From positions 558,001 through 622,000 of the forward strand of contig JAQGEQ010000263.1 of NCBI GenBank assembly GCA_034620365.1: a stretch of DNA of 64,000 nt, written 5' to 3'. The position numbers were made by a program, and so were the translations under genes. This stretch comes from Pegea sp. RAD2-039. Lineage: Eukaryota; Chordata; Thaliacea; Salpida; Salpidae. Shown piece after piece: positions 1 through 64,000 of this stretch (the first letter of the stretch is position 1; each line of letters begins with the position of its first letter). A model generated the notes under the pieces. That model was not told where the DNA came from, ran no database searches, and worked only from the letters and a program-made list of their open reading frames with translations.

Positions 1-2496
1 TGAGATTTGAATGTCAATTAGAAAGCAAAGTGTTTTTGTATCGACGATTATGTAACAACACAAATTACGATGACTCGACCACTTTTGCAATGACGTTAAT
101 TAAAAGTGAAAACGCGATTTTTTGTGCAGCTGTTGCTGATGACGTCATTGTTTATAGAGTCCAGTGAAGATTTGTTTCAAATTTTTAATAATTTCAACTT
201 AAAACGAATTTCTTTCATGAAATTAAAACTTAAATAATTTTCTAAAAATTTGATTTTTTCTTGCCACTAAATGTCGCTAATGAGCAGCTTACGTCAATTA
301 CTGAAGCTTTATCTTTCCTAATTCTTCCCAGTCATTAAAAAGTGAATATTTTGTTAAAATAATCGCTACAAACCTGCTACTATGTTAATGTTTGTAAAGC
401 TTGCTATAAAGTCTAACGACAGCGGGTGGTTTGTATGACATCATCAAGTATTTGAGCTGCTACAAACGAAGGCATTTGGAAAATTTGAAACTTTCTCCAA
501 TTTATTTTTGAGCGTTTATAAAAGTTTAAATATCCCGAAGGTCTCAAATCTTTTGATTTCAATCGATAAGGTAAATATAGAATGTTGATAAAATCTCAAT
601 TTTATGAGAGACTCTGTTTCAATCTTTAAAATGATCAAATTATTCGACCGAATCGACAAATTTTGTTCCTATAAAATGATGTTAAATCTTCTTTCTAAAA
701 GAACAATCCAAAGATATCTGAGTATTCTCTCGATGAATCTACTTATTAAAGACTTTAATATCAGCTCGAATTAACTTCCAGTTTCTTAGGTCTTCAAGAA
801 GATAATTAGAAGTCAATTTTTATGTTCAAACTTTTCTATTCACCAAGCATTTCTTAAAGATCTTTAAAATCGAATTAACTTTACAAAATCGATGAATAAA
901 TTGTTTGAAAACCTTTTTATTTTAAATCGAACTTAACTTATAAGAAGCTCAACATTTTTTTGCAAAATTAGTCATGTGACTATTCAATTTTCACACATAA
1001 CTGTTTGTTAAGTAAAATTATTAAACTAAATTACTGTATCTTCATCCATAATCATGTAAAAATTCTTTAGAGTTTGAATAGCTGAAGACTTAATTATAAT
1101 TTAATCGAATTTAAGATAAAATTAAAGTTTTTTATTTAGAAAGTAAAGAAAGTAAATTCCTTAAGCACACTTAACTAAAAACAACTGTAAAAATGATAGA
1201 TGTAAAAATTAAACCATCAAAACTTTTAACAAAGTCAGATATTGCAATATATCAATTCAATTGTTTAATATGAAAACAATTAAGCATTTATAAAACTGTT
1301 GTTTGAATATAAAAGTATTTTTGCAACTTTTAATGAAGATTTTATGCAAACAAGCGACACGCACTTCTAGTTCCGTTGTAAAGTTGTTTACAAAAAGTCT
1401 CAAAAGTCTTTTGATGTAATTTGTAGTTTGAAAAAGATCTTATTATACATCATGATGGAAATTAGAGGAACTTACAAAACAAAAAATTGAAAATATAAAC
1501 CAATTGATGGAGAAAAGAAGTAAAAATGTGGATTAAACTTGAATAAACTTGAAATTGAAATAATTCTTTATTGGAGAAGAAGTTTAAATTTTAGGAAACA
1601 ACTTTTTCTATCAAGTCTAAAATAAATGTATCGATAAATTGATAAAAACTTGAGCTAAAGTAATAAAAAGAGCTAATTTTTTTGTCGCTATGTTTCTAAA
1701 GGTAAAAATGTAAAAAAAAAAGAAGTTTTAATTATAAAAAAATTAAGTATTTAGTAATAATTGATTTATTTATTTCACAATAACATTCTAGAATACTTTA
1801 GTTGTGAAAACGCTTATCTTGCATTAAAATTAATTTTATACAAACTTATTGCTTATTTACTTATTTAATGATTAGTATACAAATAGAAATTTACTTTTTA
1901 AGCACTTTCATTTTTCTACAGCTGAAAATTGTTTTTGAAATCAATCAATTAAAAGATAGAAAAATTCATTTTTATTTTTTTTAAATCCACATTTAAAATA
2001 ATTCAATTTCTGATAAATCTTTTGATTAATATTTTATTAGCTCTTACAGCAAAAAAGTTTTCAGAAAATTGATGTTGTAAATGTTAATGAATTCATGTTC
2101 TGTACTGAATTACAGTTTCGTCTTTTTATCAAATAAGTATTTTCATTTTTTATGAGTTCTTAAAATATTATTCAAATATTTTGTTAATAAATTATAATTT
2201 TTTTATTTCAACTTTTTTTCCAGAAAATTTAAAAACAATTTTGACAAAAACAAAAAAAGATCGATTCTCAAAAACTGCTCACTTGTGACGTCATTTAACG
2301 AGACCATCAAACAAATTGGCTTTTTTCAAATCTGCATTAATTAAACATCAAAAAAACTCTTTTTTTAAAACATCCTTTTTAACTGTCCAAATCTGTACAT
2401 CATTTACACAAAAACCTCAGAATACAAACAAAGCAACATCATTGACGTCATAGCGGTGTACGCGATCGATACATGACGTCACAGGACGTGCACATC
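1..2496. other. AT-rich intergenic DNA, no gene seen
   Basis: I see no open frame with family resemblance, RNA gene or clear repeat. TGACGTCA octamers occur near 140, 2286, 2443 and 2474, three of them just past the end of the complexin-like gene. The last 200 bases may include the 3' UTR of that minus-strand gene. Confidence 0.6.
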
Positions 2497-3351
2497 TCAC
2501 TCTTCTGCGATAGAAGTCTTGATTTTCGTCCATGACTCTTTCATGATTGAAATAACGCTATGAGCAACTTTCACGACCCCCTCTTCTTCTTCTTGATCTT
2601 GGAGTCGAAGAAGATCCGGAAGACACAGAGCAAGCTGTCGATCCTCTTCACAGGACTTCAATTTGTGTTTTCTTCTCATCTCTTCCCGAAAATTCGCTCT
2701 TTCTGATCTTCTACGCGCCTGCATCATCCGGATTTTTTCTCTGTACATCAAGATATGTATTAAAAGAGCTTTATGACGTCACTAAGCGATCGAGAAAGAT
2801 AAGATTCAGCGAGAAGTTTGTCTCCATATTTGGTCATGAAACGCGATTATTAACTGAAGCGGAAATTGAATTTGACTGAAATTGAAATTGAAGGATAAAA
2901 AGAAGTTATTGAAGCGTAACTAAAACCAGCTGAGTCAATCAAAGTGACAAATTTGGCGTTTAATCAATCTTCTAAAAGCTTCGATATTGAACAATTTAAA
3001 AGTCTGAAAATTGAATTAAAATCGATTCAAGTTTTCAGCGAAATATAAATAATAATTATTATTAATAATTATCAACAATTTTTTGCTTCAAAAACTGTTT
3101 GTAAAAAAAGATGAATTTTTGTGAGAAGTCAAACTCACTGTCGTTCCTTAACCGCTTCTTGGGTTCCATCTTCTTCTTCCTCAACCTCTACAGACTTTCG
3201 TTCTTTATTAGAGTCTTCTGAAAATCCTTCTTCAGGTTCTCCAGTTATCTTTTTGATATGTTTTCCTATCTAAAAAGAACAATTTAAAGTTCTAGGAAAC
3301 TAATTTCAAGATTCCTACTTTTTCGCGTAACGGATTCTTTACAACTTCCAT
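2497..3351 (-). CDS. complexin-like SNARE regulator (3 exons)
   Basis: Exons on the minus strand are 3351-3319, 3269-3139 and 2740-2497 (stop), giving about 135 residues, the usual complexin length. The start M-E-V-V-K-N-P resembles the short amphipathic N-terminus of complexins. Exon 2 is an acidic accessory-helix-like stretch. Exon 3 starts the arginine-rich central helix: the segment MMQARRRSERANFREEM aligns without gaps to the KMEAEREAVRQGIRDKY region of vertebrate complexin, and a basic K-x-K-L-K then an acidic tail follow. Complexins bind assembled SNARE bundles at the presynaptic membrane and control vesicle fusion; that role is inferred from the family. There is no C-terminal CAAX box. 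Exon phases close (33, 131 and 244 nt). The call rests on remembered sequence; another small coiled-coil protein is the alternative. Confidence 0.72.
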
Positions 3352-5039
3352 CGCTTCAAACTCACAAAAAAATTACATCAAAATATCTGCAACAACAAAA
3401 AACTCATTTATAAACACTTTCACCAAGGTTCTACATCATCAGTATGACGTCATCAGCGATCCTAGTATCGCGAGCCACAACACTGAGAGTTGAACTGTCT
3501 CTTATACCTCTTGCCTTCTTCCTTTGAAGAAGAGATTATAAATCGATTTTCTCTTTTGATCTTATTCCATTTACGATGTAAGTTGTGATCCTGTATTACA
3601 AAACAACAACAAGGTTATTGGCTGCTAATAAAATCATTTTTAAAAGATTTGTTCTTGATACTTTTGAATATACAAAGAATTGAAAATGACAAAAATCGTT
3701 CTTTCAATAAATAATGAAAATTTTCGAAAAGTAAAATCAATATTATTTTCAGTAATAAATGTTTGTTCAACATGAATAGAAATTTATAGAAGATATATCA
3801 ATGATTTTTTGCAAGATGTAACTTTTAATTATATTTAAATGAAAATTAAGTATAAAGTTCATTTATTTATATAAAAGTTTTTATCTAAACTTTTTGTTTT
3901 TTAAGATTAATTAGTTTTTTTATAAATTTAACATCAAATTTTTACTTTATTTTTCATCAAATTAATTTACCTGCCAGTTTTTAGGCATTTTTAAATTAAT
4001 TGTAATTTTATTTTGGCAGCGGTTCAAACAACATTTCGATCAAAGCAAAAAATATCTAAAAATAATTTCTGCTTTCTTTCAAATGAAAATAGAAAATCTT
4101 ATTTATATAACCAAGGTGTATGAGAACTCAAAATACTTTAAGGTCTTTGAAAAATGATCTTATAATAGATCATGTTAAAGTTTGTTTCAATCACTTAAAA
4201 TAATTAGTATAAATGATTATAAAGTATTTCTAATTAGCTCGAATTACAGTTGTATAGATTGTAAAGGTTTTTTGCAAATTTAGTGATTTATAAAACGATT
4301 TGTTTGTATTTAAAATTAATTCTTATTAAACATTTAAAACAACTTAATTATAAATTTTAATTTTTTGTATCCTAGAAATTGATTGTTTTAATAATTGATT
4401 GTTTAATTAAGTTTTTAAGATTGAAATTTCTTGATTTTGGAAATATGAACAAATTTTTCAGTTTACTACAAAATAATTGCGAGAAATTAAGTAGTTGTTT
4501 TTAAAATACTCAAATTTTGAAACTAAATTCATTTATATTGATTAAAATAGGCAAAAAGTTTACTTTTTAATCACAACAGACTAATACAAAGAAATCTTTG
4601 AATAATAATTAATAATTTATTAAGGTTAACTTGAAAGGATACTTATTCTGGTAAATTTAAATTAACAAAAGATTAGTTGGAAAGCTTTCTGTAAAAGTTA
4701 TTAATTAGAGGTAATGACTGTTAAACTAGGATAAGAAATAAATTAAAAAAAATTTTTTTCAGTTAAAATACCTTTTAAAAAGTTTTTTGTTAGAAATCCA
4801 AAAATGAAATTTATTTTTTTAGACACAATGAACTTTATCAGTTAAATCATTATAAAGTCAGGATACTTAGAATCAAAACATTTGGATATTTCGAACAAAA
4901 TTATTCAAAAGTAGTTTTGATTTGACATTTAAATTGTTGATAAATAATTAATCGAATAACAAATTTCAAAAGCCAATTCCGACTTTTATTATTCAAAATA
5001 AAAAGTTGTGGTTTTAAAACAGAAATATTTGGAATGCAA
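3352..5039. other. intergenic region upstream of complexin, downstream of CDK8
   Basis: Very AT-rich. An acceptor-like AG at 3387-3388 (minus strand) lies 36 nt before the complexin start. One TGACGTCA lies near 3443. No open frame or RNA gene is recognisable. Confidence 0.6.
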
Positions 5040-8289
<3,250 letters not shown>

Positions 8290-10653: not shown

Positions 10654-13600
10654 TTAGAATACAGTGACAGTTTTTTCGTGTTCTCCTTCTTTCCCCCATT
10701 TTTTACGATTATTCAGACAACCATCAACCAGTGGTTTTAATTTAGGAGATACTTTTGCTAGTTTCTGAAATTAGAAGTTGACTTTTTTAATTTTATTAAA
10801 GAGCTAACATTATTTTCATCTTGTAAAATAGCTAAGTAGTTTTTAAAAGAATACAGATCAGACAATGTAAATTTAAAACAAGATGTCAGTAAAATAAATT
10901 AACATTTTTCAAATAATTATTAGGTAAGCTCATAAAAACATTTTAAATTTTATGAGTCTTAGAAAAATAGATGTAGATTGGTAATAAAATATTCAGCTTA
11001 ATTAACAACTCTTAAACAAATTAAGCTCTGTTCATTGAAACATATGTTGTTTTGGAATCAATTGTTTTTCATCACCTGATACAAAGGCAAACAAATAGCA
11101 TCAATAAATCCAATTTGCATCTCTGGGAGCTTGTGTTTCAGATCTCTATTCATCATATCTTTTGGATTTTGATGAAGACGTTCTTTTTCAAAGTCTCCTT
11201 GCTCAAAGAACTCTTCAGCAATTTCTTGAGCGATCTGTTTTTAAATAAAAAAACTCAACAATGATTATTAAATCGAGTTTTCAGGTAAAATATTTTCTGA
11301 GTGTAAATAGATAAATTTTTGACTGAAAATCTATCTAAAAAATCCAAAATAGATGAAATAAGAATAAAAAGTTTTGATAAAATACTTTTCGTTGTATTTG
11401 CCAAGGTTTTGTAATAGCGGCGACATCTGTTGACGTCATCACCATGCTCCTGTCAAAAAAAGCAATTTGTAAAAGTTGATAAACTGTGAAAAATAACTTA
11501 GACATAAAAAAGATTTGTTTTTAGAACAAAATCTGAAATGAAACAAAAGTGATCTTCTATCAAAGTATTTTGACTTTGAAAATAATTCTTCTAAATTAAT
11601 TAAGTTTCATACTTTTCAATTAAAACGAATGTTATGTCAGTAAGTATCAAAATGAATCTATTTTTCAGGATTTTAAACATCAAACCTCAACAGAGACTTG
11701 TGCTTTTCGTTTGTCCAATCATATGATTTCGTGTCAACTACATCAAAGAATTCCTTTCTTCTTTGGAAGTATACGGCAAGATCAGTACTGATGATGGAAT
11801 GCTCAATCAAACGTATCACTTTAGTGTACTGAGATTGACTTAAATGTGAAAATATTTCACAACCTGAAATCATGTTTACAAGTTAGAAGATTTAAATGTC
11901 AACAAACTTGAATAAAAAAATACAATTTAAACTGATCGCCTAAGGCAAGATATGAAAGTTGAAACTCAAGAACTGACAAGCAACTAGTTGATAGAATGTC
12001 TTTAGTAGAATGCACAGAAATCAAAATTTAAAGAAAGCTTGTCTTTTATTGATTTGTTGCTATTTTACAACATTTGTGTTTGAGTTTGCAAGAAAAAGAA
12101 AGATCAAAGTAAAGTTTAATGTTTGCTTTAATTTGACTTTGTTTAACTTTAAGCAATAACTTTTTAATATTAAACAGTATTATTGTTCGATTTTAGACAT
12201 TTTTAAAATAGCATTATCAAAACTTTACTAAAATTATCTGAATAAAAACATTTTTTAAACTGTAGGAAGATCAGGAAGTGATATGTCATGGAGTTAGATA
12301 CAAATTGAAAAGAAGATCTTGTTCAAGTCGCTTCAATTGGATCACATCTCATAATCATCTTAACAATTACAATTGCTTCCAGCAAAAAGGACTTAATCAC
12401 CATGGTAACAGCTGATGACGTCATCATACTACATTTAAGCAATTGAATTTGTAGCGAGTGACTGTGACGTCATCCGCTATTTGGTATTCGTCGAAGGTGT
12501 TTGTTCTTTACCAGAAAACGCGATTCAGTTTTTTCAACTGCATTTATTGAATGAGACGAAAATGGCCATTTTGAGGCCAAAAACTGATTTCCATGATTTG
12601 TTACTGAAACTGACAGAATGCGGCGACGTGAGTCGATGACGTCATCAGCTTTCTATTTCACTTTGAATAACTTTTATAGGTTTGCAGTTTTATGCAGAAG
12701 CGAATTGAATCAATGAACGACTTGTGGATCGAATCGATGACCCGAATATCGCGTAATGACGTCATCACCACTACTAATAAACCGCCCATGAAGATTCTAT
12801 TACATATGGGACTATTAACCAAAGAAATGGGCTTGAACTTTGGCATGGCTGCCCTTCATGGTGGTCCATTAGGTGAATTGGTTCAGTGGTCGGACCTCAT
12901 GGCTACACTACATCTTTTGGGTCATGACGTCACGTTGTCATGGTCACCAGAGCGCCTGGAAAAGTTGCTAGGCAACATAGATGATTTTAATGGCTGTCTC
13001 CCAACAAAAAGAAAATTCGATCTCGTCTTTACTGATGTCAACGGCGTTTCTCAAGTACTGATGACGTCACTGGCTGCTAATGAATATGATGACGTCATCT
13101 TTTGTAGATGATGCAAACTTTAGGAAGTCTCCATGACTACCGTTGTGTCCTAAGAGTTTTGGATGTGTTTGGAACCGAAGCAGAGTTTAATCATCCATTG
13201 TTTAATCCAAACAAACACCAAGGCGGTGATTGGGGAGGTGCTGACGTCATCAGTGCTGTGTGATGACGTCATCATCACGTGTTGCAGGTCGTGGTTTAAA
13301 TCTTGCTCAATTCTTCACTCACTTTCCACATTCACCTGACAACTCATTTTTGGGATTTGTCGTTGCTAAGCAACCTGAGGTGATGACGTCACGACTTCGG
13401 TAATTCGTCATTTGCAAAAGTTGTTTGTTGATCACATGGTTTTGTGACGTCAGAGATCGAGCGCTACTTTACGGGAAGCGAAGAGAAGTTTTGCGTGGTC
13501 GGAAGAAAGAAGAGTTTTTGGAGCTGATACGTCATCAGTTTCCCGATGTCCACGTCACAATGGAAGGCAAAGTCTCAGATGACATCATTAACCACGGAAA

Positions 13601-16600
13601 TGTGGATCAGGAGACGTTTTTAGGATTGTTACGAAGCGCGAAGCTCTTTGTTGGCTTTGAATCACCTATAGAGGGTCCTGCTGCCCTGGAAGCGATTTCA
13701 CAAGGAGCTGTCTTCCTTAACCCCAAATTTGATCCACCAAAGAGCTTAGATCTTTCAAAACCAACTCGTAGAAAGATCAAATCTCAGAATCCTTTTGCTG
13801 AAGAGTTTATTGGTGAGTTGATCTTTGTGGTGATCTTTTTGAGACCTTTCTTTCGAATCAGGGGAGCCTTTTGTTTATACAATTAATATCCGGAACCATA
13901 CTGATGTTAATCGCGTTTTGTCAAGGATACAACAACAACCTGCCAATCAACCGTTTGTTCCTCATCAATTCACATTTGAAGGATTCATCGAGGCATGTGA
14001 AGATCATTTAATGATGTTGCGATCTTATTTGCTTCTTTACAGCGAGTCAACGGCTACGTGAGTAATCAAGATTTCTGCCCGGGTGAAGTAAAATATTTGG
14101 CGGGAACAATGACTTCTTGGATCGGTCAAAAATCCGAATTATCTCCGAGTCTTAATCAGGTATCTTTTGACATCAAATTTGAATCTTTTTTAATTGAGTT
14201 TAAACTTTAGATCAAGACTTCAAAGCCTTTTGAAAGCTGTACGGCGTCATGTAAACGTCACAAACTCATTTGTGAGCCTTCTTTTTTCAGTAAGATCAAT
14301 AATTATGAATCTTTTCAAGCAAATAATGTCTTATGTTCTTCTTTTCGAACGATATATCCGAGAAAAGAGTTGGAATCATCTTCATTTTCTCTGATTCCCA
14401 CTTATCTTCCTTCTCTTGATCTTACAACTAATGAATGCTTGATTCAATCTGATTATCTTCTCTTTTCATGTGCCTCACATCCTCCAAAAGATATGATTCG
14501 GTTATGTCCTTGTAAAATCCCACAAAAATGATCAATTTATAATTTTCATGTCTCATAAAGTCTTTAATTTAAAACTAATTAAAAAGTTGATGAAACGGTG
14601 AAGACCTTCACTTTGAAGAAGCATCAATGATTGATTAAAATGATGATTCTCCATCGTTGATGTAGAGTACAATCTCGCTAATGGATGTTCAATCCTACAA
14701 ATTTCAAACTTCTTTTAAAAATCTAATAAAATCTTTTTAGAGACACAAAAAACTATATTTTTGCTGATAATAAAATAACAAATTCTATTTACTTTGCTTG
14801 GAAGTCATTCGTCCGACCGCGGTGGTCTAAATCATGACAAAGACAACTTACAAGGACTGCAAGCTTCTCAATATCATCAAATAAGTCCCCAAGACCTCCT
14901 TGAGTCATCATACAAAACGCACTTTGACACACATTGAATGCATGCCTCCAATTATGATATCTAACCGGTCGATAGTTGCGTTTTACACTTGCTAGCCATC
15001 GACAGAACACCTTCACGAAATATCATATTCAATTATTGATGTTATTTAATCATCAAGACCTCAGTTTCAATGTGGAACTTCTCAAAAAGATCTAGATCTG
15101 TAAACATCCGTAGAGATGCTCGTAAAGTGTCATCTGTATCCATTAAAAGATCACTAAACTGAAAAGAAAAGAGATTGTATGTCCTAGAAGATGGGATATC
15201 CGTAATCTATAATATGTTAGATTGTTGAATTGCTTAGTGATTGAAGTGACTAACCATTAGAGGTTTGTATTCTTCTAAAGGTGCAATGGCGTGATATGAT
15301 AAAACCTGTAGAAAGCGAATAAGTCAACAGATAGTTGTTAAATCATAACTAAAAGTCCTTTTGTCGCAACATAAACATTTACAGATAAAGATTTATATCT
15401 ACATCAATCGAAACTGGTCATTCAGATGTTTGCTTACTTCTAAAACAACTTGTTGACGGGCAGCAAGTTTTGCTTGTGACTCATACATCTTCGCTTGTGA
15501 AATACCGAGACCACAAAAGATTGCAAATGCTTCTAGTAAATGTCCATCACCTTTTGTGAACTTGTTCCCTTTACTTTCAAATTTATTGATAAGTTGGATT
15601 ACACCTGAAATCATCAACATCTTCAATTCAAGCTCATTTGATGAATGACTTTTTAGCTGATGATTAATTAGTCACAAGACACTCACCAATGACTTTATGC
15701 TGACTATTTTTAATTGGGACACACAATAAGGACCTTGTTTTGATTCCAACTAGTTTATCTTCCTGGAAACAGGAAGAAAATGAACCTTTTTCGTCAACAT
15801 CACATAACCTACCTCAAATGAAAATCTTCGGTCTTTTTTTGATTCAGAAACATTTACCGTCTACAAAAAAAGAAGATTAATTAAAAAGATCACGTGTTGA
15901 TGTGTACGAGTCACCTCTCCCGACTGCCGAACATGCGTCACAATTCTCGAATTCAAAGGAGTTTTATGAGGACTCCCTTTAATCGATAAAAGATCACCAA
16001 CCTCATCAGACACATGCTCAAAAATCTGACTGACAAAAACTGCAACAACCAATCAGAATCGAGTTGGTTGTGACGTCATCACAACTCACCATCACTTTTT
16101 TGAGGGTCACAAAGTTGGACGTTTGCTCGCTCGCAACTCAGCAAGCTCGTCACGTTGATTAAAATCTTGTTGATGACTACATTCAGTGATCTTTGCTCCT
16201 CAAATAACATCCGAGCAAGCTCCAGAAGAACCTGTGTATGTGATGACCTCATAGATGAGTAGACGTTGCTGTGATGACGTCATCACCTCATTACGACGAT
16301 TTTCAATTTTGATTTGTTCGAAAAGTTGCGCGTTGTTGATGACAATTCCACAGAAGCTGAGATAAGATGCAAAGACCTTCTCATCTTTTGTGTTAAATGG
16401 TCCGTCGTTCTTATTGATTGCTTGAGCGACCCCTACAATCTAAAGGAAGATGTTTGTGTCATCAAATAAATGATGAAGAAGAAGAAGATAGAATTTGAGG
16501 AGAATTGTTGCTTTTGCTAATTTTGATCCTAATTTTGTTATATCAATGTTGATAACTTTTGAAATTATAAAATTGGCAAATGAGAGATGTAGATGGTGTA

Positions 16601-27263: not shown

Positions 27264-28809
27264 ACTTCATCTTTTAGTATTTTATTCAAACTTTCAATCA
27301 GTTGTATATCTCAAATTCGAATTTTGATCTCGAAAACTTTCCGCTTTCAATCCATTTTCGTGTAATCGCGTATCTAGTAGCAACTGTCGAAGCTTTTCAC
27401 TGTATCCATCATCAACTATTTTCTATTTTTTTAATTTGTAGATTTTTGTTAATTTAAGTATGGAAGTTGATATTTTGTATCCTGAGATCAAAGACATTAA
27501 TGGAAGATCTTATTGCAACTTCCTTCATCAGCAAGATCCCAATCAAAGACCCCAAGTTTACAATGAAGAAAGATTCGAGGATTACATGGATGATGTAGAA
27601 GAAGATGAAGACATCAAAATCATTCAAAATCAAGACGGCAGGTGATTTATATGCAATCTTCATCCTCATCTTCATCTTTAGATCTTCCAGTTTCCGATCT
27701 GATCTCTACATCCCGTCCGTTCTTCATTCTCGACTAATTGGTAAACAACATCATCACCGCAAACAACTTGAATCAGAAACTTCAACTCAAATCCGATTCC
27801 CATCTCGAAACAGCCCTGATGACGTCATCACCATCACTGGCGCTTCATCCAAATCAGTGACGTCATGCGTGACGCGACTCACACTCAACGCCGCGAACCT
27901 TCGCGCGTCAACCCCATTCACTCACTTTCTTTCAATCCCGATCCCACTCACGGAGTCCTTCAATATCTTTCGCTCCCAAGTATTACGTCATTGCGGTGAC
28001 GTCATCAGCGCGAAACACTTCCAGAAACCACAACGTTTGCACGTGACTCTCTGCATGCTTCGGTTGCTAGACAACTGCGAAATCGAAGCAGCACGCGCAG
28101 CCCTGGCCCAATTCCCTACCACTGACTGCGTCCATTGTGACGTCAGAGGTCTCGAAGTGATGAATGACGATCCATCAGCTGTTGATGTTTTGTATGCGAA
28201 GGTATGACGTCATTTCTACCGCTTGTATGACATCACTAATCGAATCACGTGACGCAGATATCGTCCAATCAGCTGCAACAGTTAGCTGAGCAACTTGTCG
28301 AACACTTGGTGGCGTTGAATTTAGCGGAGCAATCGACTTCGCGCGCCAACATCAAGCTCCACGTCACTTTGCTCAACTCCAAGTTTGCTCTCGATCACAT
28401 GACGTCATCATCGCGACAAAGCTTCGACGTTAGCGAGTTGCTGCAACGTTTCGGTGACTTCGACTTCGGTCACGTGACTGTAGATCGCGTTTTACTGTCG
28501 TCACGTGATCGATTCGACTCGAACGGTTTCTATTGGACGGCTGGACAGTTGAAGCTGACTTGATCACGTGACTTAAATTTGTCGAAAAAAACTGAGAATT
28601 CTATTAAAACTTTGATGACGTCATCAGATCGAGATGAAAAAACTAAAAAATAAAAAAAATTAATGAAAAACTAAATTGTAATTTCATAAAAAAATCAACA
28701 ATCAGAAAAAAGCTGTGATTGATGTTGACATCACTACCTATCTTCATATATCTTCACAAACAGAAATTTCTTCAGTTCACGGTGTTATCCCGACGTTTCG
28801 ATGACGTCA
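27203..28809. repeat. cluster of TGACGTCA octamers across the PIPOX end and ASCC1
   Basis: Nine copies of TGACGTCA, at about 27203, 27819, 27858, 27996, 28139, 28204, 28401, 28616 and 28802. They fall in the last PIPOX exon, ASCC1 exons 2 and 3, the ASCC1 intron and the downstream spacer. CACGTG palindromes are mixed in, for example near 28038, 28246, 28471, 28502 and 28564. Confidence 0.85.
27460..28563 (+). CDS. ASCC1: activating signal cointegrator 1 complex subunit 1 (3 exons)
   Basis: Exons 27460-27641, 27682-28201 and 28258-28563 close to 335 residues (vertebrate ASCC1 about 357-400). The N-terminus MEVDILYPEIKDINGRSYCN matches the family start. A KH domain follows (FRSDLYIPSVLHSRLIGKQ, then TQIRFPS), with the GxxG loop altered to GKQHHH. 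The C-terminal half is the 2H phosphoesterase-like domain with its paired H-x-T motifs, LHVTLCML and LHVTLLNS, and the conserved YMNDDP...VDVLYAK region as VMNDDPSAVDVLYAK. ASCC1 works with the ASCC3 helicase in alkylation damage repair and transcription coactivation in the nucleus. The introns are 40 and 56 nt. It starts 196 bp after the PIPOX stop, on the same strand, with an acceptor-like AG at 27440-27441, so co-transcription is possible. Confidence 0.93.
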
Positions 28810-35917: not shown

Positions 35918-39061
<3,144 letters not shown>

Positions 39062-42650: not shown

Positions 42651-42779
42651 TAAAATTAATAATAAATATTAATTGAAATTGATCATTAATTGATTGTCCA
42701 GGGTTTGAGATAATCGCTTTCGATTTTTATTTCTCAGAGTCCAAATTTTCTCGTTTTATATGTACCTACTTACCTACCA

Positions 42780-45475: not shown

Positions 45476-47166
45476 TAAATTAATTTTCTTTTATAAAGAC
45501 CTGAAAATGAGCAAAATAAAAGCGAACTTTATTCTTTAAACATAATATAAAATTTTAGTTCTGAATTTTAGTATTTTAGACTAACAAATTTGAAATTGGG
45601 ATATCTAGTAGTTTTTCAAATAAATTTTATAAACCTTTCTGAACACTGATTTTGAACAAAAGAATATTTTATCGATGAAATGAAGCTAGCAATCCTCTTT
45701 TTACTTGATTTAAAAAAAGTATGGAAAGCAAATTGGTGCTCTTGTTTAAAACTTAGCAAAACTAAATCAATTTATTTTTATTTCAGTATTTTATTTTAGT
45801 TTTTTATTTAGCTACATTTTATCTTTGTATTCTATTTTAAGAGTCAGATTTTTTATTCTTCCAGATAAAAAGTTTACTGATAATTTTAAGTTTTTAAAAG
45901 AATTAAATTTCAATTTTGACTATAGTGCTTGACTTTTAAAGTTTTTGAAATTACACTATGTCAATATTTGATTATATATGTTAGTTCAAATTCACTGTGT
46001 AAATTATAGGATAATTTTAATATGTCTTTATGTTTTTTATTCTTATTTTTCTAGCGTACCTTAGCTTCTATTGCTATATGATTGTGTAAATTTTTGTTTG
46101 CAGCTTAGTAGAGATTTTTCATTATACTTCATCTACACTTCAAGTATTTAATTGTAGAAAATTATAAATTAATAAAATCTTAATCAAAGCCCTAGCCTAA
46201 ATGCTTACATTAAATATAAAATTATTTATGATTTTTTTGAATGTCTGTAAAAGCTACATTTTCTCTTGAAAAACATAAAACAAAAACTTTTTATATTTTA
46301 ACCAAAATAGTTGCTTCCACAAAGAGTTGTAAATCTGCTTGCAACATTTATCTTAAGATTATTCATATAATATTTTATAACTAGATTAAATCCTAATATT
46401 GATAAAAATCTATGATTTAGGAAACAAATAATAGAAAACAAAAAATAATTTTTTATAAATTATCTTAAATTAGAAAAGTCTTGTTTTGAAAGTATTTTTT
46501 GTCACTACCTGATATTAATAGATTTTGTTCTACATTTGTTAGTTTAAATCATAAATTTAATTCATTTAGTTTATGATATGCTGTAATTTTGAAGTTATAA
46601 GGTTTAATTTTATATTAATTAAGATTAGTTTTTAGTATTTGATTTATTTTCTGTTTATAGATATCATCATTTATAATGATTGAAGAGAAATTGTTTTCTT
46701 ATAATTTTTTTAAATATATAATGATTATTTAAATTGTTTATACTAAAACCTCCAATAAATGATAAAACAGTTAATTTGTTCTTTAATATTATCTAATTGC
46801 ATTCTTTAATTGTATCTTTAATTTTGTATAACTAATTTTAAGATTTACTTTTATGGCAATCTATGAACTTGACTTAAAATTTAAATAAAATTATTTAAAG
46901 TTATAAAAATAATTTCATAAATTTTTTTAAAAATAATTTTTTAAATAAATTCATCTTTCTTAATTATGAATTAAAAGTTTATTTTCATTATATTTAATAT
47001 AAATATTTAGTAGACATAATTAAATTCTGTAGATGATAATATTAGCTAATTTGGTTAATTTTAGATAATTTCTGTAAATATTTAAAGTTTAAATAGATAA
47101 TAACTAAAATATTTTTTTTAAATAGAGTTTCAGTAAAAATAGATTCTTTCATATTTTGTTTGAAAA
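45476..47166. other. AT-rich spacer upstream of LTN1
   Basis: No gene or repeat is recognised. Near the end, TTTTTTTTAAATAG (AG 47124-47125) and TTTCAG (47132-47133) are acceptor-like sites 34-43 nt before the LTN1 start codon. Confidence 0.5.
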
Positions 47167-50100
47167 ATGGGTAGAGACAAAGGAGTACGAACTAAAGGAA
47201 ATGTGAAGCCATCAAGTAGTAGTAGAGCTGCCCAATTACTTCATTCTAAATCTTCTGTTCCTCTTGAGACTTTTTCTGGAGGACCAGCTTATATACCAGT
47301 ATCAAGTTTCACTAATGAAGAAATTGGAATACCAAAAGAGCTTCAAAGATTATTTGCTAAAATTTCAAAAAAAGATCCAGTAACAAAATTAAAAGCATTA
47401 AATGAATTAAATACATCTTGCCAGTCACATCCAGATGATATGATTCAACTCTTACCTTTCTGGTCTCGCCATTTCAACCGCTTATGTGTTGATACAGATC
47501 GTAGAGTCCGTGAATCTGTTCAAATAACAATGAAGAGTTTGGCTATATGTTGCGGAAAAGAACTTGCTCCCTATCTTAAGTCTATTATGGGGTGGTGGTG
47601 GGTATCCCAAAGTGATAGTCATGCTTTAGCAGCTACAAAAGCTCAAGAAGGCTTCCATATTGCTTTTCCAACAGATGAGAAAAAAAGTAAAGCATTAATT
47701 TTTTGTTATGAAGAAGTTTTAAAGCTTATCTCTCAGTATATTTTTTCATCTGTTAAATCAAAACAGACTGATGAGCAAGATTTTATGAATCAGTTAGTTG
47801 CAAACTGTTTAACTTCATTTGTTGCATTTATTAAACAGATTTCTTCAAACCCAAAACATGAAAAAGTAGTTGAAAGTCTTCAGAATATTATTGATAGCCC
47901 CAGATTTTGGAAATTTCAGAAACATAAAACCTCCTCAGTAAGAGCAGCTTTTTATCATATCATTAAAGGAATTTATATCCATAAACCTCAGCTTCTAAGT
48001 AAACATCTTCAAAATACTCATAAGTCAGTTTTTTATGCTTTAAATGAGAAAGAAGGTTCATGTCTGAAAGCTATCTGGGAAGCAGCTTTTGTTATTACAG
48101 CTAATTGTCCTGATTGGTATGATAATCTTGATCTTAATGTTGGTTTTTTACCACAAGTTTATGGAATCATTCAAAGTTCTTTTTCCGGTTATGCATCTTT
48201 TGTTAGTAAACTTTTTCCACAAATTTTTAAGACCTTTCCTACCATGATTAAAACTAAAAATGTTTTTGATAAAATTCTGCAGCTACATTTAGATGCTATT
48301 GAAAATAACAAGTCTACAATTAGAAGTTCAGCTGAAACTAAAGCACTTGTAGCTTCTTTTATAGATTGCTTACAACTGATGATGACTTCATCTTCTGATG
48401 ATGTCATTATTATGTGTAAAAATCACATGTTTTCCATTTTTAAGTCTTGTCTACATGATAATAGCAATAATCCTTATTTGTTAAAACATTTCTTTCTAAG
48501 ATTTTCTCTTTTTCTAAACACTTCTCATGAGTTTAATGGTATTGATGAAATTTGGCAAGAGTTAAATTATATATTAGGTTCATTGGTGGATGATTTGAAT
48601 ATTTATGGATTGAATAATAAACTAGAATCTGAGTTTAGCAGATTTATTCAATTTTTAAAATGTTTTTTGGTGATAGAAAATAGAGAATCTACAAACAAAA
48701 ATGTAAGATTTAGTGATAAGGAATCATCTTTTAAAAAGTATTCAGAAATGAATTCAAAAGTTTTTCAATTTCTGACAAATTTCTACAACCATTTAATCAA
48801 CAATAACATCCAACAAAACTTACAATTATTCATTTGTGAAAACCTTTTTATCTATTTTATCCAAAAACAATTTTTCATCAACATTTTTCCAACTGAACAA
48901 AATCCAGTTTCATTTTTCCTTCTTAATTATTTCTTTCCTTTGTTGACAAAACCAGCAACAGATGGAAGTAATTATCAACTAGATATCAGCAAACAAGTCA
49001 GTTTTGTTTATAAATCATTATGTCATTGTAACTGCCCTGAAACAGATTTCTTCCAACTTATCTTTTCAAAGGCATCTTCTGACTTTAGTTTGAATCTTAT
49101 CAAAGAGACGCTTCAGTCTTCAAATCCATCAAACTGGATTTCTCAGTGGATTTATACATCTAGTGACAAAATGGTCGAATTTATTTGTGATCGAAAACAG
49201 CAACTAATTGATGATCAACAATTATGGTCACTTTTAGAATTGGCATTTACTCCATGGCAACATAAACCTGACACCTGTAAACTTCCAATAAAATCCGTGG
49301 TTCGTCTGTTGGATGCAGTAATCCCATCTTATCTTCTCGATATCGACGCTCTAATCCGTATCTCATCTCTCTTCACTAATCTCTTGCCTCTATTTTCTGA
49401 TCAAGAAGATATAGGGAGGTTGGCAGACTTTTATGTGTGCTTAGTCATCAATTTGATTAATTCCTTGGCACCTGCTCACATCTTAGATCAAATACTGATG
49501 AAGTTGATTCAACTTCACCAACTACATCACTATTTTCTTCAACATCCGACTGAATTAAATCTCTTTTTTCAAAAATCTGCTTCCAGTCTTCAAAATCTTA
49601 TCGTTAAAGATCCGGGGAATTCCCTCATCCACAACTTATCTTCTTCTTTCAAACAAATTCTTATTTCTTTTCCTTCAAACTTTCTTCACTTGTTCCTAAA
49701 AAACTTCCTCCCATCTTCATCTTACTGGGAGTCCTCAGAGATTCGGAACAATCTCTCTTGGAGCGGTTGGATCAATACTCATGACATCTTAAAGGGTCTT
49801 TATGTCCCTCAAACCAATCAAATTTGGACAGAATCACCAACACGACCCACTTACATTGACGTGGTCCGGACTTTCACCAACTTCTGCAACTTCCTTATCT
49901 CGGATCAATCAATGAAAGACTTCTCAGACCCTTCTCTTGATGCTCTTGCCATGGAAACGCTTCTAGCGTCTTCTATCGCTTCCACTCGCGTCTCCCTCAC
50001 CTATCCTTACTCACAATACAAGGATGACGTCATCAAAAACGCTTCGCGCATCGGTCACGGCTGGCTGCTCATCTTCAAATCGCTTTTAAATCTTTGTATT

Positions 50101-52362
50101 TGCGAATTAGAAGTCACAAATCAGCTGTTGACGCTCGAACTCAATGACGTCACCACCAACGTCTTACTCGTCTTCTGCTATGAATCTGAAGATCAAGAAT
50201 CCCTCCGAAATCTTCTTCATCATCTTCTGCGACTTCCCACTTCCGGTCATCAACTTTTTATTGCTTCTGTTATTATCAATAAGATTGATGACGTCACAAC
50301 TGGTGACGTCACCGCCACAGATGTCCCTTCTGCTGATGTTGCTGATGATGACGTCACAACTGATGATGTCACCGCCACAGGTGACACTTCTGCTGACGTT
50401 GCTGATGATGACGTCACAACTGATGACGTCACCGCCGCAGATGTCCCTTCTGCTGACGTTGCTGATGATGACGTCACACTTGATGACGTCACCGCCACAG
50501 ATGACAATTCTTCTGATGTTGCTAACAATGGCGTCGTTGATGTTGATGACGTCATAAATGATGAAGTCACAACTAATGACGTCACTATTCTAACGCTACT
50601 CGCTGTCACTCAAAGATTGCGTAGTGATTCTAATGACGTCATCTTCGACTCAAGTGACGTCACACTTGTTATTGGATGCTTGGCACTGTTCGAAGAAGTG
50701 GGGCGTGCCCTTGAAACTGGTCACGTGACCTTAAACGAATCTCAATGGGATTTCATTCTTTGTTTGCTGGTCACGTGGTTTAGTGATCTGAAGTCACGTT
50801 TTATCGACCAATCAGAAGACCCGCTGAAACAAAGTCACTTGTGTGCACTTCTAACTCGTCTGTGTGACGTCACAACACGCTTCCATCGTCTACTGACGTC
50901 ATCAACAGCACGCGATGATCCCACATTACCAGCAGGACTCGTGAGTGAGTGGCAGGAGTTCTACTCTCCTCTTGCACATCAAACACTCGTTCATATCTAC
51001 CTCTACGTCATCACTCCGTTACGTCATCACGCTACATACGTCGATGAGGTGATGACGTCAATGGCTTCGTTACTCAAAGATACGGAACGAGGATCGATCC
51101 TCGGAGGTTGCCGGGATCAGTATCCGGAGGAGCAGAAGATTATTAAGAAGCTTCTTCCGCATCTAACAGCTCGATTCACGCCAATGACGTCACTACTAGA
51201 TCGCTTGATCGCGTATGAACTGACGTCGGTGCTGGTGACGTCATCAACAGTGATACAGCCGGATGAAGAGCTTGTCCACTTGGTGGAGCTGCTTGCATCA
51301 CAAATTGATCTTTGCAATCTGCCAACATTTACTTCTCAGCCAGTGAATGACGTCACAATTGAAGAAGATGATGACGTCACATTAGATGAAGATGATGACT
51401 TCACGTTTGAAAAAGATAATGACGTCATATCTGACAAGAATGATGACGTCATATGTGATAAAAATGATGAGGCCAAGCATGAAGATGATGACGTCATACG
51501 TGATGAAGATGATGACGTCATCTTTCCGAGAGATCTTCTCACAAATTACTTTCTCGTTTTTGATCTACTTCTCAAACAACTTGAACGAATATCTCTGGAA
51601 CAACGACGTCATCACATCGTCAAACTCGATGACGTCATCAATCATCTATTCCGCTGTCTTCTGTCATGTCTTCCGCATGATTCTGATCATTTGTTTCAAA
51701 CATCGCTGCGCGTTTCTGACGTCACTACATTTCACGATCACGTGACGTGTGTGACTTACAAGCAGCTACTGAGAAGTGTCCCGGCTCTGGTCCGTTCCAT
51801 CTTCCATAATGCTGACCGCAAGACCCAAACCCACGTTGATTGGTACACTAGAAGTTATGTGAGTCCGTTGCTATGTCGTGAAGAGTTGAGAGTGGTTGCT
51901 AGGGAAGATCAACCGGATCAGATGAAGATCATATCTCGTCCTCAGCTCCGAGAAGTCCTTGCATCTTATGAGATTTCGGATGCGCAGTTTGAGATTAGTA
52001 TCAAGCTCCCGGCAAATTATCCTCTCAATCCTGTTGATGTAGAAACGCTGAAAAGAAGCGGGATCCCTCTCGCTCAATGGCGTTACTGGATCTTACAGAT
52101 GACGTCACTGTTGCATCAAGAAAACGGAAGCATCGTTGACGCTTTATCGCTATGGAAACGGAAAGTTGATAAGCGATTTGCTGATGTCGAAGAATGTATG
52201 GTTTGTTTCTCGGTTGTGCATTCAAGTGGAACTCGATCGCTTCCTACTCTCGCTTGTAAGACTTGTCACAAAAAATTTCATCCTCAATGTCTCTACAAAT
52301 GGTTTGATTCCAGTAATCAATCAACATGTCCTCTTTGTCGTTCTGTTATGTTCTTCCGCTAG
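47167..52362 (+). CDS. LTN1: E3 ubiquitin ligase listerin (single exon)
   Basis: An uninterrupted 1731-residue frame, close to the vertebrate length of about 1766. The N-terminus (MGRDKGVRTKGNVKPSSSSR, SKKDPVTKLKALNE, DRRVRESVQ, APYLKSIMGWWW) matches the listerin N-terminal domain. A long HEAT/ARM-like middle follows. The RWD-like region has WYTRSYVSPLLCREEL. The end is the listerin RING-CH variant: CMVCFSVVH, SLPTLACKTCHKKFH, CLYKWFDSSNQSTCPLCRS (residues about 1677-1726). Listerin ubiquitinates stalled nascent chains on 60S subunits with NEMF. The frame contains a four-unit 20-residue acidic repeat (residues about 1041-1119) and a second Asp/Val-rich acidic tract (about 1395-1455). Both are made of TGACGTCA-bearing DNA and absent from relatives I recall. 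The 3' half is also visibly richer in G+C than the 5' half. A gene with about 30 exons in vertebrates here has no coding intron. Confidence 0.96.
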   Translation: MGRDKGVRTKGNVKPSSSSRAAQLLHSKSSVPLETFSGGPAYIPVSSFTNEEIGIPKELQRLFAKISKKDPVTKLKALNELNTSCQSHPDDMIQLLPFWSRHFNRLCVDTDRRVRESVQITMKSLAICCGKELAPYLKSIMGWWWVSQSDSHALAATKAQEGFHIAFPTDEKKSKALIFCYEEVLKLISQYIFSSVKSKQTDEQDFMNQLVANCLTSFVAFIKQISSNPKHEKVVESLQNIIDSPRFWKFQKHKTSSVRAAFYHIIKGIYIHKPQLLSKHLQNTHKSVFYALNEKEGSCLKAIWEAAFVITANCPDWYDNLDLNVGFLPQVYGIIQSSFSGYASFVSKLFPQIFKTFPTMIKTKNVFDKILQLHLDAIENNKSTIRSSAETKALVASFIDCLQLMMTSSSDDVIIMCKNHMFSIFKSCLHDNSNNPYLLKHFFLRFSLFLNTSHEFNGIDEIWQELNYILGSLVDDLNIYGLNNKLESEFSRFIQFLKCFLVIENRESTNKNVRFSDKESSFKKYSEMNSKVFQFLTNFYNHLINNNIQQNLQLFICENLFIYFIQKQFFINIFPTEQNPVSFFLLNYFFPLLTKPATDGSNYQLDISKQVSFVYKSLCHCNCPETDFFQLIFSKASSDFSLNLIKETLQSSNPSNWISQWIYTSSDKMVEFICDRKQQLIDDQQLWSLLELAFTPWQHKPDTCKLPIKSVVRLLDAVIPSYLLDIDALIRISSLFTNLLPLFSDQEDIGRLADFYVCLVINLINSLAPAHILDQILMKLIQLHQLHHYFLQHPTELNLFFQKSASSLQNLIVKDPGNSLIHNLSSSFKQILISFPSNFLHLFLKNFLPSSSYWESSEIRNNLSWSGWINTHDILKGLYVPQTNQIWTESPTRPTYIDVVRTFTNFCNFLISDQSMKDFSDPSLDALAMETLLASSIASTRVSLTYPYSQYKDDVIKNASRIGHGWLLIFKSLLNLCICELEVTNQLLTLELNDVTTNVLLVFCYESEDQESLRNLLHHLLRLPTSGHQLFIASVIINKIDDVTTGDVTATDVPSADVADDDVTTDDVTATGDTSADVADDDVTTDDVTAADVPSADVADDDVTLDDVTATDDNSSDVANNGVVDVDDVINDEVTTNDVTILTLLAVTQRLRSDSNDVIFDSSDVTLVIGCLALFEEVGRALETGHVTLNESQWDFILCLLVTWFSDLKSRFIDQSEDPLKQSHLCALLTRLCDVTTRFHRLLTSSTARDDPTLPAGLVSEWQEFYSPLAHQTLVHIYLYVITPLRHHATYVDEVMTSMASLLKDTERGSILGGCRDQYPEEQKIIKKLLPHLTARFTPMTSLLDRLIAYELTSVLVTSSTVIQPDEELVHLVELLASQIDLCNLPTFTSQPVNDVTIEEDDDVTLDEDDDFTFEKDNDVISDKNDDVICDKNDEAKHEDDDVIRDEDDDVIFPRDLLTNYFLVFDLLLKQLERISLEQRRHHIVKLDDVINHLFRCLLSCLPHDSDHLFQTSLRVSDVTTFHDHVTCVTYKQLLRSVPALVRSIFHNADRKTQTHVDWYTRSYVSPLLCREELRVVAREDQPDQMKIISRPQLREVLASYEISDAQFEISIKLPANYPLNPVDVETLKRSGIPLAQWRYWILQMTSLLHQENGSIVDALSLWKRKVDKRFADVEECMVCFSVVHSSGTRSLPTLACKTCHKKFHPQCLYKWFDSSNQSTCPLCRSVMFFR
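50025..52107. repeat. dense TGACGTCA octamer cluster in the 3' half of LTN1
   Basis: About 27 exact copies in 2.1 kb of coding sequence, against none in the first 2.8 kb of the same ORF. They are read in two frames, giving Asp-Asp-Val-Thr/Ile (GAT GAC GTC AYN) and Met-Thr-Ser (ATG ACG TCA). CACGTG also recurs here (about 50722, 50773, 51739). Confidence 0.92.
50287..50523. repeat. in-frame 60-bp coding minisatellite, four units
   Basis: Units at 50287-50343 (57 nt), 50344-50403, 50404-50463 and 50464-50523. Each encodes a version of DDDVTTDDVTAxDVPSADVA and carries one or two TGACGTCA copies. Unit lengths are multiples of three, so frame is kept. Confidence 0.95.
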
Positions 52363-53774: not shown

Positions 53775-53850
53775 GCGATCCTGGTGGGACTCGAACCCAC
53801 AATCTTCGGATTAGGAGTCCGACGCCTTCTCCATTAGGCCACAAGACCGC
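53775..53850 (-). tRNA. tRNA-Arg (anticodon CCT)
   Basis: On the minus strand the sequence starts GCGGTCTTGTGGCCTAATGG and ends GGTTCGAGTCCCACCAGGATCGC-like. It has a 7-bp acceptor stem with G-U pairs, A-box TGGCCTAATGG, anticodon loop CTCCTAA, B-box GGTTCGAGTCC and no intron. CCT decodes AGG. Eight T residues follow directly on the transcribed strand, an RNA polymerase III terminator. The body matches animal tRNA-Arg(CCT) closely. Confidence 0.97.
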
Positions 53851-61300: not shown

Positions 61301-64000
61301 ATATATCAGTTTAAAAAAATTAGCTGCAACATTAATAAAACATTCTTATAACCTTTTAAAGTTTTCTTTAATAGCTTTATATTTAGGTAGAAAAATTATT
61401 GAATAATAAATATAAAGTTTATTATTTAAGTAGAATAAATTTTTCTTTCGTTTCTTTAAACTTTCTACTCTTCAATTTTTGGCATTTATGAATCAATCAA
61501 TTTAAGATAAAATAAATAATTTTGGATAAATGAATAAATAATAATAATAGTCTAGAAACATTTACTTAAGAAAAAATTACATTTATATTAATTTGAAACA
61601 TCAAGTTGTAAATCAATAAGAATTAGAAATATTAAGAGAAAAATAATTATATAAAAGTCTTTATAATTCAAAACAGCATCCTTATTACGTATTTATGAGT
61701 ATCGTTGGTAGCCAACGCGGCTAATAGTCGTATTTCACACATATAACACATGTTTAGAAGAAATTTGATGTTTAAAATGTACACCATGTATGATTACTAA
61801 AGTTTTTGCTTCTATTTATCTTTAAAAAAAGGTTTTATGTTTTTATAAAAAACATCTGATAGATATAAATCATTTTTTATAAATCAAATTATTTTTTCTT
61901 AGTGGAAACTTATAGTGATGTAAAATTGAGATACCTTAATCTTATTTTTTTCTACTCGTGGTTACACATAGACTCAAAAATACATAAAGCTAAAAATTAA
62001 AGTTAAGATTAAAATTAGAAAACCTTTAAGAACTGCTTCTAGGAAATACTTGCCTTGTATAGTACACTAGAATTAATTGGTTGATTTTTATATTAAACTG
62101 GTATCCTACAAACCAATAAAATGACAATATCGCTTCTGTTGAAACTTGTTATATTTTTTTCTAAGAATTAGGCGATTATTTGAAATGTACCCGCCTGACA
62201 ATATCTTATAAGCGAGACATATACTGTTGAGGTTTAATAAAAAACATCTTTTGCGGTTCTTTTGTCCTCTCATATATCTTTTACTGGTAAGACTTCTATA
62301 GAAAAGTTTTTCCCTGATTCTGAGAAGAAGGAGACCTCACATTTTTTAGATGATAAACTGTTTTCTAACTGACAGCTCTAGTGGTCTTTTTGATTTCCTA
62401 CCAAAGATTTCAATTGCTGTAGATAAGATAAAACTTTTTTAAAATGAACAAATATTTTTCAAAATCAATTTCAAAATCTTTATTTCAAATTTTCATTGAA
62501 AGTAGAAGTATTATTCAAAAGTTGAGAAAGTTTTTGTTCAGATATTTAAAAAAATATTCAAAAATAAAAAACAATTTATTTTCTATTGGTACAAAAATAT
62601 TTATTTATTTATAAAATCAAAGTTATATCTTGTTGATCAAAATGATAAATAATATTTTTAAATATTTTGAGATCTTAAAATATCTTTATTTGGAGTAAAT
62701 TATAAAAAAAAAAAACTGATTAAATTTAGTTCAAAATAGTTTCTACAAACTTTCTATCATTATTATAAATAAAAGTATGGAAGTTTATGAATATATTTGT
62801 GTATGTTTACTTATCTATTTCTTTTTGAACTTTAATACTTATAAATTAAGTAATAAAATTGATAAATTAAGTTAACTAGTTTTAAGCTCACTCTTTTTTG
62901 TTTCTTACAAAACGATATTTTCCTCTGAGTATTTTTAGAGTACAAGACTTTCTACGGAGTACTTCGTGATCTAACATTTTTAGAGTCATTTAAGGACAAA
63001 TTTAATTCATCTACCAAAAAGAAAAACGCTGAAAGTTTGAAATCAGATATGGCAGCTTGTAGCTACTCCTAAAATGATATAATCCAGTTTCTCCTTCTCT
63101 TAACTGTTTCCAGCATTTGGAAGAAAATTTCAACTTTGTTTTTGCAAAAATAAAAATTATACCTTAGCTAAAATAATATTATTCTAAGTTTCATCTAAAA
63201 GTAACAAAACGTTAAACCGATAGTTTAAATAATTGATAAGTTTGCATATCTGATGAATAGTGTTGTTTTATCTTAAAGGACTTGTTTATTTTAAAAATGA
63301 ATTTGCAAAAGTTCACCAACCTGTTAATTGATATCATTGTTTTTATGTTTTCAATATAACTTCAACAACAACAACAACAACAACCATGTCATATGTTTTG
63401 AGAAATACATTAGTTGTGGTTATTTGTTGTCATATTTTGCTCTGATTAAGCTCTTGTAAGCTCAATTCTTGAAAAGAACCAAAAAATTGTTTGTTCCTAT
63501 AAGGAGATATGAGGTAATCAATACAATTTCTTAGTCTGTGGTTGCATTTATGATTAATTTTATAGGAGTTGTTAAAAATAGATTAAACTTTTTTCTCAAA
63601 ATTAATTTATATTCAAGCTAGTTATTATTTTAGAACCGTAATCTTATGACAACTTGGTTATTTGAAAAGTGTTTTGCAAAAAAAATCGTTTTCAAAAGAA
63701 ACATGACTTTTTGATAAAATTAGATGAGTAATTTATTTTGCTGTTTTGATTTTATAAAAGCGTTGATTTAAATTCCTTTCTATTTTTGAGAAGTTAAACC
63801 TACTTATAATTTCAAGCTTATTTTAAAGGTATTAAAGAAAAGTCATAACAAGCTTGTAAAAAGCGATTGTTCTTTTTTTCAATTTGAGCATATTTCAGCT
63901 GCTTTATTCTAAGAACTCCAAGTTAATAGCTCATATACCCCAGAAAAAAATAAGTCAATAATAAGTTGAGAGTAACGGTATTATTTAATTAGTTATTTTT
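58315..64000. other. AT-rich terminal region, no gene recognised
   Basis: About 5.7 kb without a recognisable coding region, RNA gene or TGACGTCA copy. A short CAA microsatellite (63363-63384) is the only clear repeat. Genes may begin outside the window. Confidence 0.55.
63363..63384. repeat. (CAA)n microsatellite
   Basis: About seven perfect CAA units in an otherwise unremarkable AT-rich stretch. Confidence 0.9.

Follow-up and report, generated by a model that had tools for sequence, protein, structure and literature searches.

An over-represented palindromic octamer matching the cyclic AMP response element in coding and noncoding DNA of a salp

We analysed a 64,000-nucleotide stretch of the genome of the salp Pegea sp. 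RAD2-039 (assembly GCA_034620365.1, contig JAQGEQ010000263.1, positions 558,001 to 622,000 of the forward strand; hereafter the window), which contains an MGAT5-like gene, a phosphodiesterase-type gene, ASCC1 and LTN1 (listerin), and in which the palindromic octamer TGACGTCA, the full cyclic AMP response element (CRE), occurs 59 times. A previous examination of the letters alone (the sequence-only reading) had counted 59 exact copies by eye, and our recount gave exactly the same number. The sites are palindromic, and their coordinates are given without strand.

Four genes were modelled by eye and by homology from genomic sequence: MGAT5, ASCC1 and part of the phosphodiesterase, all three within the window, plus lipin from a further locus, L053. 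Their spliced frames are open. Pfam recognized LNS2 in the spliced lipin model (9e-99), AKAP7_NLS (3.6e-44) and KH in the spliced ASCC1 model. Single exons matched PDEase_I and Glyco_transf_18, while the spliced GAF piece of the phosphodiesterase had no Pfam match and was placed by its generally known homology. LTN1 (47164..52362, plus strand) is one uninterrupted open frame of 1,732 codons.

Abundance and clustering of the octamer

One hundred dinucleotide shuffles of the window contained a mean of 0.40 and a maximum of 3 copies of TGACGTCA, and Markov models of orders 0, 1, 2 and 3 predicted 0.45, 0.47, 0.70 and 4.6 copies. At orders 4–6 the expectation climbs to 21–59, because these models absorb TGACGTCA itself. 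The excess amounts to 147-fold relative to the shuffles, 84–131-fold at orders 0–2 and 13-fold at order 3, and the over-representation noted in the sequence-only reading is confirmed.

In the whole assembly (105,744,746 bases in 387 contigs; 105.7 Mb), TGACGTCA occurs 27,792 times, or about 263 times per Mb and once per 3.8 kb, against 453–651 copies expected from low-order Markov models, a 43–61-fold excess. The background for this expectation was estimated, with or without the window, on contigs C1 and C3, from which ten 10 kb stretches at regular spacing were picked after the first match list, with two added later. The reversed octamer, used as a control word, occurs 969 times, near its own expectation of about 890–1,160. 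TGACGTCA is thus a palindromic 8-mer whose observed/expected ratio lies in the tens across the genome, as had been supposed when it was called a genome-wide element, although with 59 copies, against a genome mean of 16.8 per 64 kb, the window has 3.5 times the average density. The results below on GC with distance, near-site words, splice offsets, flank covariation, introns and alignable flanks also include four site-rich stretches and loci cut around matches, which are non-random samples.

Within the window the sites are strongly clustered; 49 of 64 1-kb bins lack a site, against 25 expected, with a variance-to-mean ratio of 7.1. Indeed, 47 of the 59 sites lie in the three clusters that the sequence-only reading had named, at 12.4–13.5, 27.2–28.8 and 50.0–52.1 kb. 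The first (12416..13452, 11 sites) covers exons and 50–54 bp introns of the MGAT5-like (glycosyltransferase family 18, GT18) gene, the second (27203..28809, 9 of 59 sites) lies within and around the ASCC1 gene with its KH and AKAP7 2H domains, and the densest (50025..52107, 27 sites) is inside the LTN1 coding sequence. A minor cluster of five sites lies at 2286..3452.

Site density follows base composition. In the window and the ten regular stretches it climbs with motif-masked GC content and, from 25% GC upwards, is greater where CpG is kept, ranging from 0–0.28 per kb below 30% GC, in line with the near absence from AT-rich spacers described before, up to 6.6 per kb in the GC-richest, CpG-retaining bin. 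Pooled with the four site-rich stretches, motif-masked GC declines with distance: it is 0.46 up to 10 bases from a site and 0.27 at distances above 1.6 kb, while the motif-masked CpG observed/expected ratio drops from 1.26 beside sites to 0.54–0.62 at a distance. Because the islands keep their CpGs, they are probably unmethylated in the germline; the low CpG content outside them suggests germline methylation.

The boundary of such an island can be followed within LTN1. The first 2.4 kb of the frame (before 49564) contain no site, 17 CpGs and a motif-masked GC content at fourfold degenerate positions (GC4) of 0.15, whereas the remaining 2.8 kb contain 27 sites, all from 50025 onwards, 123 CpGs outside the word and a GC4 of 0.40; with CpG contexts removed, GC4 still differs (0.24 against 0.49, P 2e-4). 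Since sites, CpG and GC4 shift within one frame, abruptly from CpG-poor to CpG-rich near 49.5 kb, the LTN1 island is a compositional domain starting within an exon. The sites are read as D-V in 22 of 27 cases and as T-S in 5, and none lies in the TGA-containing phase. Thirteen fall in repeats coding for DDVT/DDVI-like peptides, 7 of them at 50289–50491 and 6 at 51348–51520, within repeat stretches spanning 50289–50500 and 51347–51521, so not all 27 are independent events. A genome search for an uncollapsed LTN1 allele matched only the window itself at length. The repeat at 51347–51521 resembles low-complexity DNA on contigs C57, C14, C23, C52 and others, at about 69–78% identity.

Such repeats, with similar low-complexity DNA elsewhere, are in keeping with carriage of the word by transposable elements or satellites, or with a protein-level motif (D-V, T-S). 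The same applies to the 9 of 246 sites whose 100-base flank aligns to another place in the sample; 5 of these belong to listerin, in or around its repeats, and 2 adjoin a minisatellite in L053. Yet the other 237 have no alignable flank within the sample, and because alignable flanks are confined to so few sites, we conclude that no repeat carries TGACGTCA; a transposon or satellite origin was rejected for most copies on this ground and on flank composition. Furthermore, the stretch from 32,207 to 50,024 is free of sites and includes a reverse-transcriptase frame at 44.0–44.6 kb, and introns of the four modelled genes hold more copies per kb than exons. We regard this explanation as scarcely credible. 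The frame belongs to open stretches resembling a broken element of the long interspersed nuclear element type (42812–45340; RVT_1 match at 44010–44594), themselves without TGACGTCA. Large minisatellite-like repeats were also seen near sites outside the window (L046 4990–7030; L053 7640–8160 and 8930–10000; L054 5525–6000), some with long open frames, such as QTTSTGPKPHQLVPNHINWS in L046.

Sites in exons and introns

The modelled genes contain 12 introns of 50–58 bp each (638 bp in total; at 12628–13453, 16030–16300 and 28202–28257 of the window and 6668–7540 of L053), which carry 12 sites, or 18.8 per kb, with at least one site in 9 of the 12. The exons of the four genes (3,196 bp) carry 11 sites, or 3.4 per kb, giving a 5.5 times excess in introns (P 1e-4); when the 3' part of LTN1 is added, exon density is 6.3 per kb and the intron excess remains (P 0.002). 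Both densities are far above the 0.02–0.08 per kb expected in island sequence. The intron count omits a possible 45 bp intron of lipin and a possible 110 bp intron of MGAT5, each with two sites, and both would strengthen the excess. The reading that mini-introns carry a copy at either end failed in some cases: the two-site candidates of lipin (7550/7610) and MGAT5 (13384/13445) contained coding sequence, judged from the spliced frames. TGACGTCA is therefore present in both coding and noncoding DNA, and the statement that sites lie in exons, introns and noncoding flanks, beyond promoters alone, holds in the modelled genes.

On the plus strand, the MGAT5 gene has introns of 52 bp (12628..12679, one site at 12637; modelled by eye, frame open), 53 bp (13055..13107, sites at 13062 and 13090), 50 bp (13238..13287, sites at 13242 and 13264) and 54 bp (13400..13453, one site at 13445 adjoining the acceptor). 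The phosphodiesterase-type gene, on the minus strand and with PDEase_I in a nearby exon, has sites in a 50 bp intron (16071..16078) and a 55 bp intron (16275..16282), and the 56 bp intron of ASCC1 (28202..28257, plus strand) contains one TGACGTCA and one TCACGTGA. The exonic MGAT5 site at 12925..12932 codes for H-D-V-T, aligned without gaps to H-D-I-R of a solved MGAT5 chain; likewise, ungapped copies give C-D-V-R for C-Q-L-R in ASCC1 and L-Q-M-T-S-L for L-Q-L-S-T-Y in LTN1. Several exonic copies thus stand at ungapped homologous positions and therefore arose by substitution, whereas those at 12757, 27820 and 27997 adjoin alignment gaps of one or two residues.

The concentration in introns could reflect a role in RNA, with copies in introns and exons pairing mutually or serving as splicing enhancers. 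The presence of the word in 9 of the 12 introns speaks for such a role, as do the 7 of 12 intronic copies that start at most 11 bases from the 5' splice site and a mild rise of GT upstream of sites at several offsets. However, the 5' placement is explicable by the space left by the branch point and pyrimidine tract, 3 of the 12 introns of the same size lack the word, and AG is not raised downstream. On these GT and AG figures a splice-site element was rejected as a general cause. In addition, 79 neighbouring copy pairs showed no excess of flank covariation such as pairing would leave (outer positions 47 against 48.2, inner 49 against 48.9), and LTN1 carries 27 copies in an intronless frame. 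Splicing as the general cause, one of the roles offered by the sequence-only reading, is unlikely because of these 27 sites in one uninterrupted frame and the absence of flank covariation, and an RNA-level role as a whole is very improbable.

Flanks, neighbouring words and candidate explanations

The immediate surroundings of TGACGTCA are not random. At 83 sites in the window and the ten regular stretches, base −1 is A with a frequency of 0.66 and G with 0.24, G or T is preferred at −2 and T at −3, and past that the composition is near background, which yields the consensus R-TGACGTCA-Y, with A/G at −1 and T/C at +8. Left and right flanks are nearly independent (247 sites). A symmetric dimer that contacts two separate half-sites, as bZIP proteins do, leaves such a pattern. 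The identification of the word with the CRE/CREB core was upheld, in that the exact word is accompanied by bZIP-type flanks and variants, as compared with the commonly known specificity, with TGGCGTCA as a misfit. The AP-1 word TGACTCA was rejected as the relevant site (0.8 times expectation in the sample). A mutation process that makes palindromes was likewise rejected; when palindromic 8-mers were ranked, the top 15 included just two with more than four copies, TGACGTCA and TCACGTGA. The latter, an E-box, occurs 4,614 times genome-wide (7–9.5 times expectation; reversed control, 237). It is frequently seen as GTCACGTG, both at 26440–28570 of the window and across the genome, and it is raised near TGACGTCA sites in the sample.

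These features bring in massive ordinary transcriptional regulation, whereby the sites would be CRE enhancers and promoters kept by selection for CREB/ATF binding, and the exonic and intronic copies would be enhancers in a compact genome. The variant spectrum is bZIP-like, and the E-box palindrome is likewise in excess, CRE and E-box both being CpG words of vertebrate promoters. In Ciona, one 1.8 kb enhancer region holds 10 copies of TRTGACGTCA, and in another the motif overlaps a needed core, but a CREB-like site elsewhere proved dispensable (PMC11001920). A promoter CRE of the vertebrate type would be expected to favour −1 to −150 of transcription starts, but Ciona CREs are reported without positional bias to such starts (PMC1796609). 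In the window, 27 of the 59 sites crowd into about 2.1 kb of a single coding frame, towards the 3' end of LTN1, which does not suit such regulation. We consider regulation of this kind possible but somewhat doubtful as the full explanation; selection for regulatory binding ranks only slightly behind biased transmission, discussed below.

We also compared the one-mismatch neighbours of TGACGTCA, counted genome-wide on both strands, which bear on recognition against decay. TGATGTCA, the CpG deamination product, is the most frequent of the four words counted individually (11,070 copies, 2.3–2.5 times expectation), followed by the transversion TTACGTCA (5,160; 2.3–3.4 times), the transition TAACGTCA (2,370 against 1,750–2,285 expected; 1.04–1.35 times) and the transition TGGCGTCA (1,239; 2.4–2.7 times). 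TTACGTCA thus exceeds TAACGTCA twofold genome-wide, and its reverse complement TGACGTAA is a CRE variant; TGGCGTCA is a weak CRE by bZIP rules. TGATGTCA is described as a functional CRE variant of lower affinity (PMC1796609). All 24 one-mismatch words together number 37,125 (64,917 minus the exact copies) against 19,600–22,800 expected (1.6–1.9 times). Under assumed fractions, neutral decay of the 27,792 sites predicts about 2,800–5,600 extra TAACGTCA, against 85–620 seen. Since TTACGTCA is raised and TAACGTCA hardly so, the pattern of neighbouring words favours bZIP-like protein recognition over plain decay.

The same counts bear on a process like that behind highly iterated palindrome 1 (HIP1) of cyanobacteria, in which repair or mutation, for example mismatch repair guided by modification of the central CpG, would re-create a functionless word. 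In size (about 263 per Mb and 43–61-fold) the excess belongs to the HIP1 class, the one-mismatch excess is about half the exact count, and the commonest neighbour counted, TGATGTCA, is the deamination product, all of which such a process would accommodate. On the other hand, the flank preference resembles a protein footprint in reaching 2–3 bases past the 8-mer, the transversion TTACGTCA is commoner than the transition TAACGTCA, and to our knowledge no eukaryotic HIP1-like repair system has been described. We judge this process improbable. Of the suggestion that the word is the product of biased mutation or repair, simple mutation bias has become less likely, as only TGACGTCA and TCACGTGA stand out and TAACGTCA is hardly raised genome-wide.

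The presence of TGACGTCA within and between genes suggests something acting on DNA itself to retain the word, most likely, on the evidence of its flanks and variants, through CREB/ATF-type binding in germline-open chromatin. We therefore tentatively read TGACGTCA as a highly iterated DNA-level element, the full palindromic CRE, which would be read by a CREB/ATF-type bZIP dimer and favoured in CpG-keeping, GC-rich islands. A force seen in coding and noncoding DNA, in GC-raised islands and with dozens of copies per exon suggests, more specifically, biased transmission in germline-open chromatin. In this scheme, a CREB/ATF-type bZIP dimer would occupy the exact palindrome in islands open in the germline, and there, in open and recombination-active chromatin, biased repair or conversion would favour transmission of the occupied allele, alongside or in place of weak selection for binding. 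Both the germline binding and the advantage through transmission of the occupied allele are what we infer. Reversible mutation–fixation balance links word excess to a population-scaled advantage, and under this standard theory the 43–61-fold excess computes to a scaled advantage of only about 4; if the population is very large, this could be maintained at thousands of sites. A bolder form, in which the bZIP-read octamer would both spread and persist by such biased transmission, as an animal counterpart of HIP1, is rather unlikely; the word would then be written into exons, introns and spacers wherever islands are unmethylated and active in recombination, with changes in codon use, local GC and protein sequence as by-products.

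Several observations weigh against the tentative reading. Summed over all neighbours, the excess is about 0.5–0.6 per exact site, where neutral turnover would be expected to give one-to-one, a shortfall of only about twofold; the case against decay therefore depends on the identity of the raised neighbours and not on their sum. At up to 250 bp from sites, in a sample conditioned on site presence, 60 one-mismatch words were found against 19.3 expected, including 6 TAACGTCA against 1.4, alongside 11 TTACGTCA against 1.4 and 18 TGATGTCA against 3.7; some decay is visible near sites. TGGCGTCA, at 2.4–2.7 times expectation, behaves as decay predicts and misfits the bZIP variant spectrum. A break-starting meiotic motif should be lost by conversion (the hotspot paradox). 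The greater density in genes than in spacers is also expected from a regulatory role. In fission yeast ade6, a plain CRE was reported as neither bound by Atf1-Pcr1 nor recombinogenic (PMC9775316).

Other features were noted in passing. A tRNA gene lies on the minus strand at 53776–53848 of the window, with similar copies on several other contigs, and it was the only Rfam match in the window. On contig C14, a cellulose-synthase-like segment and a glycoside hydrolase family 6 (GH6) domain lie within 3 kb on the same strand, and a CesA-GH6 gene is a tunicate hallmark, so that on this evidence the genome is probably a tunicate's; a search for mitochondrial COX1 gave no match. The former matches TIGR03030 with E 2e-29, under the model cut-off, in a model that also matches 11 of 14 control genomes, and Pfam Cellulose_synt (4.7e-7), ranked behind general family-2 glycosyltransferase models; the latter scores 27.5 bits, just above the cut-off, is found in none of the 14 controls, and reaches E 1.8e-8 as a separate frame.

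Comparison with known systems

An 8-base word this dense in animal coding and noncoding DNA would offer a natural test case for telling weak binding-site selection from biased conversion. CRE matches in tunicate enhancers would not alone be evidence of function, and D-V and T-S residues of conserved proteins could be the imprint of a DNA-level force. Among the matches listed from the full-text literature, a scope that excludes preprints and most subscription journals, we found no description of such an excess in a tunicate or other animal, and a term search of the main text of an 8-mer study including Ciona gave no ACGT string (PMC12525110).

The word is identical to the canonical CRE of CREB/ATF, with its central CpG, and TGATGTCA is also raised (PMC1796609); what differs is that tens of thousands of copies occur here in 106 Mb, many in coding exons. 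The preference for R and Y in the flanks also agrees with bZIP sites as generally known. The joint excess of TGACGTCA and TCACGTGA in CpG-retaining islands recalls vertebrate promoters in CpG islands, where CRE and E-box words are found, but the islands here also cover gene bodies and a 3' end. A break-forming motif of the M26 type should erode, whereas TGACGTCA is in excess. The likeness to M26 and other CRE-like hotspots lies in the ATGACGT core, bound by ATF/CREB proteins in yeast and active within coding sequence; in fission yeast, a meiotic hotspot can arise within a gene where Atf1-Pcr1 binds ATGACGT (PMC9775316).

The nearest known phenomenon is HIP1. It is found in most cyanobacteria outside one group, at observed/expected ratios of 55–228 and 300–2,700 copies per Mb, and a methylation-linked repair origin has been proposed for it (PMC4390886). 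As with HIP1 and the alternate highly iterated palindromes described there, TGACGTCA is a palindromic octamer tens-fold over expectation genome-wide; it differs from the CGATCG-cored HIP1 in its animal genome, its GACGTC core, its strong clustering in islands and its bZIP-like flanks.

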